The notes beneath the pieces are model-generated. The model saw only the letters and a list, made by a program, of their open reading frames with translations. It did not search any database and was not told where the DNA came from. 64,000 nucleotides of DNA from Rhodoferax potami (GTDB lineage: Bacteria > Pseudomonadota > Gammaproteobacteria > Burkholderiales > Burkholderiaceae_C): contig NZ_JAVBIJ010000001.1 of NCBI RefSeq assembly GCF_032193765.1, forward strand, positions 2,914,001 to 2,978,000, read 5' to 3'. Positions 14,853-18,880 of the stretch are shown here, in pieces (positions within the stretch are counted from its first letter, which is position 1; each line of letters begins with the position of its first letter). Made by a program: the position numbers and the translations under genes.

Positions 14853-15323
14853 TCACACAAAGGCAAGCATCCTTTTTTGCTTTTCCCAGTCGCGTGGCAG
14901 GGGCTCATGACGCCCACGGATCGTCTGCAGATTCAGATGCCGTGGCTGGGAACCGTCCAGGATGGCCTCAATGATTTCGGGTGCCAGATTCGCCATGCGC
15001 ATGACCTCCGCGACCCAGCCCGGCTCCAGCTTGAAAGCCCGAGCCAGATCGGTCGCAGTGGCGTACTTGCCCTCATCGAGCAAGCGCTGCCAATAAAACG
15101 CCTTGCCCAGCGTTTTAATCATCGGAATGTCCAAGCCGCCGGACATGACGTTGGCCCCAGTGCCTGACGGTGGGGTCAGCAGCTTGCGGTTTTGTTTGCG
15201 GCGGATCGTCAGCGGGACCATGGTCACACGCTGAGTGCCATCCATGATTTGCCGCGCCGCCCCCCCCACATCAATGCGCACACTGCGCAGCCTTGGGTTG
15301 CCTTGATATGCCTCGCTCGTCAT
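14853..15323 (-). CDS. HTH protein of the serine-recombinase module
   Basis: A 156-aa protein. The conserved C-terminal part (KAFYWQRLLDEGKYATATDLARAFKL...VMRMANLAPEIIEAILDGSQPRHL) is a ParB/KorB-like helix-turn-helix regularly found just after large serine recombinases in proteobacterial islands. It probably assists or regulates recombination, but its role has not been defined to my knowledge. ATG 15323 overlaps the recombinase stop (ATGA) and has GAGGAGG upstream, so it was translationally coupled to the recombinase. With that gene now broken, its expression may be reduced. Confidence 0.75.
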   Translation of the reverse strand: MTSEAYQGNPRLRSVRIDVGGAARQIMDGTQRVTMVPLTIRRKQNRKLLTPPSGTGANVMSGGLDIPMIKTLGKAFYWQRLLDEGKYATATDLARAFKLEPGWVAEVMRMANLAPEIIEAILDGSQPRHLNLQTIRGRHEPLPRDWEKQKRMLAFV

Positions 15324-16698
15324 GCCATCACCTCCTCTGCGTATTCCTTGGTCTCTTCCACGTAGGGGTGGGCCACGATGCTTGGATCCAGTCCGATCCA
15401 GCCATCCTCGCGCCAATGGATGTCCAAGCTACCGTCCCTGAAGTCCACGCGTTCAATGAGCAACTGTGCAATGCGCTGTTGCTCCGCCGGAAACAACTGC
15501 TTCCAGACATCGGCAATTCGTCGCATCGACACCACCACCTGGTCTTCTTGAAGATCGGCTCCGGCACTGTGCTGCAGGCATGATCGCCAAACGCCAATCA
15601 GTGGCTCCGGCTCCATCAGCGCCAGCTCGATTTCATTCAAAACCGCAGCCTCGATTTCAGCTGCCGGGAGCGCACCGATGCTTTGCCCGCGTCCATCTTG
15701 GGTTGCGCCTGCGCTGCGTCGCTTTTCCAAGTACGGCACGTAGTACCGATACATGCGGCCATTCTTTTTCTTGGTGTAGTGATGGATCATGCGCTGGCCA
15801 TCGGGTGCAAACAACAAGCCGCCCAACAGCGCCGGGTATTCGTCTTTGCGCACCCTTGGGCCTTGCTTGCGCCGGTTGACGAACGCTTGCACGCCATCCC
15901 ACAGCTCCTGCGAAATGATGCTGGTGTGTTGCGCTGGGAAGAACTCACCCTTGTGGCTGATCTCGCCAAGGTAGAGCCGGTTTCGCAGCAGGCAAAACAG
16001 GTACTGCTGATCGATGGGGCGACCCGCACGGTGCTGGCCGGATTGTGTGACCCAAGACTTAGTGCTGTGACCTTCGATCTCCAGTTCGCGCACAAGGCGT
16101 GCTGCCGAACCGTGCTCCGCGTACCGACGAAAGATGTCCTGCACCAGACTGGCCTCTCGCTCGTTGACCAGCAGTTTGCGATCGACCACGTCATAGCCCA
16201 ACGGAGGCGTACCCCCCATCCACATGCCCTTGGCCTTGCTGGCTGCGATCTTGTCTCGGATGCGTTCGCCCGTGACCTCACGTTCAAACTGTGCAAAGGA
16301 CAGCAAGATGTTGAGCGTCAGTCGCCCCATCGAAGTGGTCGTATTGAACTGCTGTGTGACCGAGACAAACGAGACGTTGTTGCGATCGAACACCTCCACC
16401 AGCTTGGCAAAGTCGGGCAGGCTGCGTGTGAGCCGGTCGATCTTGTAGACCACCACCACATCAATTTTTCTGGCCTCGATGTCTGCCATCAGGCGTTTGA
16501 GTCCAGGACGATCAATATTGCCACCGGAGAATCCGCCGTCGTCGTATGTGTCATCCAGCGCCAGCCAACCTTCGTGGCGTTGGCTGCTCACGAATGCGAG
16601 ACCAGCATCGCGTTGTGCTTCCAGGCTGTTGTACTCCTGGTCCAAGCCTTCATCGGTCGACTTGCGCGTGTAGATCGCGCAGCGCTTTTTGGGGATGA
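15320..16698 (-). pseudogene. Large serine recombinase, main fragment (5' end displaced by IS21)
   Basis: Encodes nearly all of a large serine recombinase: resolvase domain with catalytic serine in CAIYTRKS, VVVYKIDRLTRSLPDF and the LTLNILLSFAQFERE helix, then a recombinase domain (GMWMGGTPPLGYDV) and a C-terminal zinc-ribbon-like and coiled region. Upstream of the catalytic serine the frame runs into the IS end and meets a TGA (near 16831) without any ATG, GTG or TTG. Joining 18837-18880 to this fragment and keeping one ATGA copy restores the start and one frame of 472 codons. The enzyme is therefore probably not made as an active protein. Confidence 0.9.
16695..16698. repeat. Target-site duplication ATGA, left
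   Basis: Direct repeat with 18837-18840 flanking the IS. One copy is needed to restore the recombinase frame. Confidence 0.88.
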
Positions 16699-16804
16699 TG
16701 TCAAACGCAGTTTCGATTTGATACAGCTGTCGAACGCAAACGCGGCGTGGATTTGATACACCGTTGTGTGGGGCGATTGTCTGTTTTGTCTTTGCTTGTC
16801 TTTC

Positions 16805-16834
16805 AAGCAGTCAGTGGCTCGCCACTGACTGCTT
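16805..16834. repeat. Perfect 14-bp inverted repeat inside the IS end
   Basis: AAGCAGTCAGTGGC at 16805-16818 and its complement at 16821-16834 with a 2-base centre. It lies 7 bp past the istB stop. It could stop or slow istAB transcripts; no T-run follows on the minus strand. It would also form a strong hairpin in any read-through into the recombinase remnant. Confidence 0.7.
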
Positions 16835-16841
16835 GGCGCCC

Positions 16842-17669
16842 TTAGGCTGCCTGTTCCTCCTGTGTATCAAGGTGACTGCGTTTTCGTTTGAGTAGGGTAT
16901 TGCTGCTGGCGGCAATCACACCGGCACGCCGCTTATCTTTCAGGCGATAGGAGTCTCCTGAAATCGGGACCACATGGGCGTGGTGGAGCAGTCGGTCAAG
17001 TAGCGCCGCTGTCAGCGTGGCATCGTCTGCAAACGTCTGGTCCCATTGCCCAAACGGCAGATTGGAGGTCAGGATGAGACTTCCCACTTCATAGCGTTTG
17101 GCAATGACTTGGAACAGAAGATTCGCCTGTTCCCGATTCATGGGAAGGTACCCGACCTCGTCAATGATCAACAGCCGGTAGGGACGCACGATGCGTTTGA
17201 TAGCCTCTTCCAGGGTGTTCTGCCGTAGTGCCGTGCTCAGTGTCATCAGCAGATCTGCCGCCGTGATGAAACGCGTCTTGATTCCAGCCTGGGTTGCCCT
17301 GTAGCCCAAGGCGATGGCCAAGTGGGTTTTGCCCACCCCACTGGCGCCCAGCAAGACCACGTTCTCGCTGCGCTCCACGAAGGCCAGACTGCCAAGCTCC
17401 TGTACCAGGGGTTTGGGCACGCCGCTGGCAAACTGGAAGTCAAACTCATCAAGCGTCTTGATGGCGGGGAAGCCCGCTATGCGCGTGAGCATGGCGCGTG
17501 TTCTCTCCACTCTGGCTAGAGCCTCGCCACGCAAGGCTTGCTCCAGGAACTCCAGGTACCCCAGCTCTTTCTTGGCCGCCATTTGCCCCAAGTGGGCAAG
17601 CTGATCGGGTAAGTTGAGCAGGCGCAGCTGATCACACAGTTCACGCAGTCTTTCCATTTGCAGGCTCAT
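16842..17669 (-). CDS. istB: IS21 helper ATPase IstB
   Basis: A 275-aa AAA+ ATPase, the transposition helper of IS21. It has Walker A GASGVGKT at 108-115 and Walker [11 protein letters not shown]. IstB chooses and remodels target DNA for IstA. The start overlaps the istA stop (ATGA). Length and motifs are normal for the family, so it is probably functional. Confidence 0.95.
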
Positions 17670-18739
17670 GGTCGTCCTCCTGCTGAGGCTTGGTTGTGCA
17701 CCAGCGTGTCATACATCGCCAGAGGATGCTGCAGGCCTCGCCATGCCGCGGCTGGAATTGGCCGGACTGCTGCGCCGCTACCGGTGACTTTTTGCAATTG
17801 ACGCACTGTTCGCCCACTGTAGGCGCTGGGGATGGCCAGCAGATGTGTGCGCTCCTGTTGCAAAGCCAGTGCCGGCACACACCCAGTGGTTCCGTGGATC
17901 CGCACATTGGCAACGTCACGCAGCCAGGTGCGCATTTCCCGATTGGCTGTGTCCGCGTCCACCACCAAGCATTGCTGCTTCATACTCGCCACCAATGGCA
18001 CCCAGAAGCTGCGCCGGATGTAGCCATTCATGCGTTCGACTTTGCCCTTGGTCTTGGCCCGATAGGGCTTGCACACCCGCGGCACAAAGCCATGGTGGTG
18101 CGCAAAGTCAGCAAAGGCACCCTGGAACTGGTGCAGGTTCTTGCCGTAGGCGTCACGCTTGAGGATGACGGTCTTCATGTTGTCGTACAGCACTTCACGG
18201 GTGACTCCACCAAAGCTCTCGAACGCCCTGACATGGCACGCCAGTAGTGTCTCCAGCTTCATGTCTGTGACAAACTCCGCGAAGGTCGCCCGGCTGTGGC
18301 CAAGCGTTGCCACAAACGCCGCCAACATGCCGTCTTTATGCCCAGACTTGCGGAACTCGATCCAGTCCATCTGCATTTGCTCACCGGGCTGGGTCTCGAA
18401 CCGCACAACCGGATCCGGGCGCGCCTGTGGACGCAACTCCTTGAGGTACTCCTGCAGGATGCGCACGGAGCCCGTATACCCCTGTGCGGCAATCTCACGC
18501 TGCAGCACCGTTGCGGGAATCCAATCAGGCTTGGCCGCCTGAATACGTCCAGCCAAGTAGTCCTTGAATGGATCGAGCTTGCTTTTACGTTCCGGCAGTT
18601 TCTTCATGGCCGGCGGACCGCCCTCCAAATACTTACGCACCGTGTTGACTGCCATTCCAGTTTGCGCCGATATCTCGCGCAAGCTCAGCCTGTGCTTCCT
18701 TAAAACCTTGAGTTCCATGTACTCCTCGTTCGTAATCAT
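17666..18739 (-). CDS. istA: IS21 transposase IstA
   Basis: A 357-aa transposase: N-terminal helix-turn-helix ([21 protein letters not shown]) and an rve-type catalytic core with QMDWIEF, LYDNMKT and [10 protein letters not shown] supplying the D, D and E residues. It is shorter than the larger IstA proteins of about 500 aa but complete in motifs. ATG 18739 ([11 protein letters not shown]) matches the usual family start; an upstream ATG at 18751 is in frame. It is co-transcribed with istB. Confidence 0.92.
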
Positions 18740-18836
18740 TGCCAGTCCCATCCATGGTTCGGATGGCTTGGCACGTTAGTCGAGGTGTATCAATTCCTCA
18801 CCGCGTTTGCGTGTCATTTTCATACTGCGCGTGACA

Positions 18837-18840
18837 ATGA
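18837..18840. repeat. Target-site duplication ATGA, right
   Basis: Pairs with 16695-16698 at the other IS boundary. Confidence 0.88.
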
Positions 18841-18880
18841 ACGAGGGCGTGCTTGCCACTGCTGTGCGAGAGGTTCTCAT
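18837..18880 (-). pseudogene. Large serine recombinase, N-terminal fragment (14 codons)
   Basis: ATG 18880 with AGGAGG 5 bp upstream, overlapping the DUF2924 stop (ATGA). It encodes MRTSRTAVASTPSF and then runs into the IS. Joined to the fragment ending at 16694 it reads on as IPKKRCAIYTRKS, the standard N-terminus of these recombinases. This is the displaced start of the gene at 15320-16698. Confidence 0.88.

Follow-up and report, generated by a model that had tools for sequence, protein, structure and literature searches.

Large recombinases encoded next to a DUF2924 protein are found in Acidithiobacillus phage AcaML1 and Wolbachia phage WO, and these are the closest known systems to the locus described here, the interrupted integrase module of a prophage in a stretch of 64,000 nucleotides from Rhodoferax potami (the window). 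The genome has a size of 4.0 Mb and is assembled in two contigs (C1 and C2), with the window corresponding to C1:2914001-2978000. The AcaML1 genes gp4, gp3 and gp2 have the same order as the module in the window, namely DUF2924 protein, large recombinase and small subunit. The integrases are 55% and the DUF2924 proteins 49% identical, and the AcaML1 gene in the position of the small third gene is annotated as 'site specific recombinase small subunit'. Unlike the gene in the window, the AcaML1 recombinase gene is annotated as one uninterrupted coding sequence, and host and target gene are different ones. Table 2 of PMC3826726 lists 'srrA', with repeats of 10 bp, as the bacterial attachment site (attB) of AcaML1; this is probably the transfer-messenger RNA (tmRNA) gene ssrA.

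Phage WO likewise has DUF2924 adjacent to a large serine recombinase, as seen in the hits H5, H6, H8 and H25-H28 and in a passage of PMC10299305, and its recombinases are 38-39% identical to that of the window. Passages of PMC9203015 describe insertion sequences (IS) and prophage rearrangement in phage WO; the integration sites named there are magnesium chelatase, VNTR-105 and others, and these passages mention no transfer RNA (tRNA) end. The integrases of TP901-1, A118 and phiC31, whose structures have been solved, match by sequence in their catalytic or recombinase domains. In contrast to these three, the family considered here is short (472 amino acids), is partnered with a DUF2924 protein and a small protein, and is located at tRNA or tmRNA 3' ends. 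Taken as a whole, the locus is with high probability a prophage in tRNA-Phe, whose integrase gene was split during a recent burst of an IS21 element and whose far attachment (att) site was, in the genome as assembled, displaced by recombination between IS copies.

An integrase gene split by an IS21 element

An IS splits a large serine integrase gene on the minus strand of the window directly behind codon 14, on the 5' side of the codon for the catalytic serine. The features of the region are the following.

14853 to 15323, minus strand: small third gene of the integrase module (PHROG 14161 'recombinase', E 1.6e-43; gene order of AcaML1)
15320 to 16698, minus strand: 3' fragment of the large serine integrase gene (PF00239, PF07508, PHROG 95 integrase, frame check)
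16695 to 16698: target-site duplication ATGA, left copy
16699 to 18836, minus strand: IS21-family IS of 2,138 bp with ends TGTCA/TGACA (genome copies with the same boundaries; NCBIfam IS21 models)
16842 to 17669, minus strand: istB helper ATPase (PF01695, E 5.2e-85; NF006616, 432.7 bits against a cut-off of 300)
17666 to 18751, minus strand: istA transposase (PF00665 rve, E 8e-18; NF033546, 315.9 bits against a cut-off of 160)
18837 to 18840: target-site duplication ATGA, right copy
18837 to 18880, minus strand: 5' stub of the same gene, which starts with the ATG at 18880 and encodes 14 residues before the IS (start as in intact relatives)
18877 to 19350, minus strand: intact DUF2924 gene (PF11149, E 9.6e-41; its stop overlaps the integrase start, ATGA)

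The stub is preceded by AAGGAGG and encodes MRTSRTAVASTPSF. An earlier note on this DNA had pointed out the ATG at 18880, the AGGAGG upstream and the 14 residues, all of which agree with the sequence, the ATG in addition overlapping the DUF2924 stop. The 3' fragment begins just upstream of the catalytic serine and ends at a stop codon, overlapping the small third gene. It contains a Resolvase domain (PF00239, E 1.3e-34) and a Recombinase domain (PF07508, E 8.1e-10). A large serine integrase carries its N-terminal catalytic serine in the same protein, which does not hold here, as the IS separates the serine from any ATG, GTG or TTG. The frame of the fragment is open for 55 codons above its first TTG (16645), up to 16810 inside the IS, and none of these codons is ATG, GTG or TTG. 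The frame check thus bears out the absence of such a codon before the catalytic serine, as claimed in the note, in which two CTG codons had gone unmentioned. Both ATGA copies and the boundaries at 16699 and 18836 are likewise as described there, with ends TGTCA/TGACA flanked by ATGA.

The IS shows nothing unusual for the IS21 family. Its istA has the rve/DDE core, istB encodes an AAA+ helper ATPase, and the TG...CA ends, here TGTCA/TGACA, are accompanied by a short target duplication of 4 bp. Target duplications of IS21 elements are 4-8 bp long.

The split was examined by means of natural relatives only, and the flanks of the integrase were never joined artificially. The 441-residue fragment served as query, and the best 80 of 431 relatives were retained as loci L009 to L088. 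Natural relatives at 95-98% identity have an uninterrupted gene that encodes 472 amino acids. This length is found exactly in L010, L012, L015 and L009, the first 14 residues of which differ from the stub at one, one, one and two positions, respectively. While none of the four is identical to the stub, the latter has the majority residue at each of the 14 positions. The DNA of these four loci and of L011 is contiguous across the site, aligning up to 16698/16699 and again from 18836/18837. The overlap on the side of the relatives is 4-5 bp, matching the expectation for a 4-bp duplication. YxRxS, the catalytic motif, stands directly upstream in one open frame in all 77 relatives tested (L014, L080 and L083 were omitted, their match starting inside the gene), and the N-terminal extensions differ among relatives. 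The earlier claim that removal of the IS restores a frame of 472 codons is therefore matched by natural proteins of 472 residues, with an N-terminus that is one or two residues off. The check proposed with it, a search for relatives with a different N-terminus or with flanks that are never contiguous, returned contiguous close relatives whose N-terminus agrees except for these one or two residues. A chance juxtaposition of open reading frames is excluded by the intact relatives, and the IS splits what was formerly a single integrase gene.

Two of the loci show peculiarities of their own. L009 is a contig of 16 kb in which parts of the same prophage are joined across large gaps, either a deleted prophage or an artefact of a metagenome-assembled genome. 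The integrase frame of L086 (10001-11316, Ottowia beijingensis) ends early, after 348 codons from query residue 1, while the homology continues, which may reflect a frameshift or a sequencing error.

Scoring of 40 of the 64 first-look candidates yielded at least 24 genomic copies of the IS. Twenty of these copies, including the one in the window, are identical over 2,138 bp, and four differ by one base, which supports the earlier description of the inactivation as recent. Both flanks are present for 23 copies, of which 15 show a perfect 4-bp duplication; it is absent in the other eight, several of which match across copies, and 5-bp half-site matches occur occasionally. No match to the IS was obtained among 72,556 plasmid records at megablast sensitivity. 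A search of 40 relative genomes, with at most seven candidates scored per genome, returned one close copy, 95% identical, in the same-genus genome G007, besides a 29-bp match to an IS end in G020 and weak partial matches in G027, G032 and G036; copies in relatives may be missed because of the limited number of scored candidates. Within the limits of the search of 40 genomes, this recent burst is local. A preference of the IS for DUF2924 modules was considered and rejected: although two of the 24 copies are located in such a module or close to one, no clear common target motif is recognisable by eye.

Attachment sites and a candidate 0.88-Mb inversion

The right end of the prophage coincides with the 3' end of a tRNA-Phe gene. 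The corresponding features are listed below.

1 to 24672, continuing to the left of the window: right part of the prophage (N-terminal part of the terminase, primase, PD-(D/E)XK nuclease, Sak4-like protein, antirepressor, integrase module, CapH/CapP-like pair)
24673 to 24748, minus strand: tRNA-Phe (gaa), the integration site (ARAGORN; comparison with same-genus loci and G001)
24673 to 24678: att core TGGTGG, CCACCA on the tRNA strand (attR here; attL at C1:3743994-3743999)

To the left of tRNA-Phe, the sequence differs from that of the window in the nine same-genus loci inspected. Homology with the genome G001 begins at C1:2938673 (24673 in the window) and extends to the right. The other side of the tRNA-Phe of G001 corresponds, at about 95% identity, to C1:3743994 onwards, and G007 corresponds to the same place at 69%. 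In G001, the two halves overlap by the 6 bp TGGTGG, the putative core for recombination between attP and attB. Serine integrases use short cores of such a kind. As assembled, attR thus lies in the window and attL at a distance of 805 kb, on the far side of an IS copy. An attL in the vicinity was sought as a long tRNA-derived direct repeat and rejected, as the best match to the tRNA-Phe region within the window and the 40 kb to its left is 13 bp long; the real partner is the 6-bp core at C1:3744 kb.

The displacement can be traced to two IS copies, L105 (C1:2858844) and L103 (C1:3737914), which are opposed in orientation and carry the reciprocal half-duplications TTCG/TTAC. The flanks of the other breakpoint are contiguous in G020, with an overlap of 4-5 bp, and 25 bp apart in G001. 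Reversing the segment 2860982-3737913 (876,932 bp) mends both junctions and returns 3.9 kb beside attL to the side of the prophage; the segment includes dnaA (C1:3424758). An inversion of about 0.88 Mb by recombination between IS copies, which would have carried off the far end of the prophage, is on balance favoured as a real event in the cell. It is placed no higher because C2 ends exactly at an IS copy, half-duplications match across copies and a run of N lies near the end of C1. Six 4-bp half-duplication matches were counted among nine copies without a duplication of their own, against a chance mean of 0.29, and several of them connect C1 with C2. The DNA between the att halves totals 81,633 bp, all or part of which may be one prophage.

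The alternative is an assembly error at the identical IS copies, in which case the cell would carry a contiguous prophage with no damage other than the broken integrase. This explanation is a serious contender, though a somewhat weaker one. It is favoured by the identical repeats of 2.1 kb, the end of C2 at an IS copy, the half-duplications swapped between C1 and C2 and the run of N. Against it, an assembly of 4.0 Mb in two contigs suggests that most IS copies were spanned, and an inversion with dnaA inside the inverted segment is of a type that cells often tolerate. Exchanged half-duplications were observed among the copies L100, L101, L102 and L112-L115 on C1 and C2, reflecting either exchange between IS copies or misassembly.

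Prophage content and prospects of excision

The element encodes, to the left of the window and within it, endolysin, tail-tip, tail-fibre, tape-measure, head-protease and portal proteins and a terminase (N-terminal 303 amino acids scanned). These structural genes are followed by those for primase, nuclease, Sak4-like protein and antirepressor, then by the integrase module and the CapH/CapP-like pair of regulator and protease. Packaging, head, tail and lysis genes are found together, as in a tailed phage, and the structural genes rule out an integrative and conjugative element or a small island. Many loci of Beta- and Gammaproteobacteria share blocks of the prophage in the same order, with nucleotide identities of about 64-96%. 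Just upstream of the integrase, a DUF2924 homologue is present in 77 of the 80 family loci (75 of the 76 with room for it), and 76 of the 80 have a homologue of the small gene immediately downstream (75 of the 76 where it would fit).

The sequence suggests the following course of events. A temperate phage with a DUF2924 protein, a large serine integrase and a small partner integrated, as comparison shows, at the CCACCA 3' end of tRNA-Phe. The recent IS21 burst then placed one copy in the integrase gene, cutting the start and its 14 residues off from the catalytic serine and all that follows it. Because the serine is left without a preceding common start codon, the interrupted gene should yield no active integrase, and no excision by the enzyme of the prophage itself would therefore be expected. 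The prophage is thus very probably unable to excise on its own and locked in the chromosome. Two further opposed IS copies, one of them within the element, appear from the assembly to have recombined, which in the cell would have turned round a segment of about 0.88 Mb and displaced the far att site by 0.8 Mb.

Possible help in trans weighs against a locked prophage. Apart from the fragment in the window, the genome has one resolvase-domain hit, an intact large serine recombinase gene at C1:1922195-1923583 with a DUF2924 module of its own. The second element to which it belongs (C1:1919021-1929727; L094 and L174) abuts the 3' end of tmRNA, which also ends in CCACCA, and its recombinase could excise the prophage through the common core. 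Such help is possible but unlikely. The two recombinases are just 48% identical, and a serine integrase as a rule recognises only its own attP; moreover, with the att halves 0.8 Mb apart as assembled, recombination would not excise the phage. An IS21 copy is located about 0.7 kb downstream of the recombinase gene of the second element.

It is still less probable that the recombinase in the window is a passenger and that the phage was integrated by another enzyme. A span of about 6 kb that contains other genes separates its start from the att end. However, none of the 11 tyrosine-integrase hits in the genome falls inside the element, so that a tyrosine integrase was rejected as the true integrase, and the only other resolvase hit is 1 Mb away. 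In addition, a tRNA gene occurs in the fetched flanks of 39 of the 80 family loci, the nearest one pointing with its 3' end towards the integrase module in all 39, and the AcaML1 record calls the homologue a site-specific recombinase. The gene product had been regarded as the likely integrase of an island; this assignment is upheld, with the element recognised as a prophage. Rare non-canonical initiation in the end of the IS, giving a working integrase with a new N-terminus, is possible in view of two CTG codons (and an ATC) in frame upstream within the 55 open codons and of the varied N-terminal extensions of relatives, but it is the least probable explanation of all, since ATG, GTG and TTG are absent, no clear ribosome-binding site is visible by eye before the CTG codons and the frame is uninterrupted in every relative tested.

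Several neighbouring genes deserve mention. The pair at 20691-22399, an ImmA/IrrE-like protease and a helix-turn-helix regulator, resembles CapP/CapH and is possibly the lysogeny switch of the prophage. A major facilitator superfamily (MFS) transporter and a divergent AraC-type regulator (12759-14787) lie amid phage genes as cargo; no NCBIfam model scored over its cut-off for either of them. In L012 this pair is missing from the same place, and about 25 bp separate the matches on either side. The left part of the element (L117:4931-13563) encodes the M, S and R subunits of a Type I restriction-modification system, and the preceding gene matches PADLOC Orf5 and HEC-06.

Conserved tRNA ends as candidate targets

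The tRNA search was performed with ARAGORN on the 80 loci with fetched flanks of up to 10 kb. The 39 tRNA genes facing an integrase module comprise 22 for Phe, 13 for Ala, two for Lys and one each for Met and Glu; these loci are not independent, because many are close relatives. All 39 end in CCACCA. A perfect stem of at least 6 bp is located within 60 nucleotides on the phage side in 38 of them, the exception being L022, as would be the case for a replacement terminator. As a small control, the window, L155 and L046 provided eight further tRNA genes, of which one, for Tyr, ends in CCACCA.

Where ARAGORN returned no hit (41 loci), the core was sought beside such a hairpin, and seven loci have it. 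Four of these are tRNA-Phe-like ends (L012, L024, L029 and L066), one is tRNA-like (L060) and two are not tRNA (L030 and L055). The search found nothing in the other 34 loci, many of which are on short contigs. The cores of L030 and L055, being outside tRNA, tell against a strict tRNA requirement. One pair of loci, L032 from Pigmentiphaga and L033 from Cupriavidus cauae, has identical integrases and prophages without a mismatch over 16,217 bp (from 5107 on). The prophage is located in tRNA-Phe in L032 and in tRNA-Lys in L033, and the host DNA is unrelated (1,432 of 5,090 positions alike). This pair would be a natural experiment for the targeting of several tRNA genes.

Integrases with a DUF2924 protein and a small partner may recognise, instead of a single attB, the conserved end that tRNA and tmRNA genes share on their 3' side (CCACCA and perhaps the T-arm), bring their own replacement terminator and use many tRNA genes, with the phage of the window locked twice by one IS; the case for this proposal as a whole appears evenly poised. 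Tyrosine integrases use tRNA 3' ends, and knowledge of the specificity of serine integrases in integrative and conjugative elements is called 'scarce', both according to excerpts of PMC4701971. A literature search found, in the texts it returned, no description of serine integrases at tRNA-Phe or of serine integrases targeting multiple tRNA ends, which is no proof of absence. TIGER and Islander, named in PMC12884075, map islands to integrases, and their databases may already hold raw cases of serine integrases at tRNA ends.

The inactivation of a prophage integrase by an IS is an ordinary event, and IS-driven rearrangement and degradation of prophages is already known, for example from the passages on phage WO in PMC9203015. 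Here, the near-identical IS copies date the inactivation, and a single burst may have locked the phage in two steps. The lead that emerges is the location of serine integrases at the ends of tmRNA and of tRNA genes of several isotypes, sites normally associated with tyrosine integrases. If this holds true, these serine integrases would have numerous natural landing sites in Beta- and Gammaproteobacteria. The choice of target, not the break in the gene, is the part worth testing.

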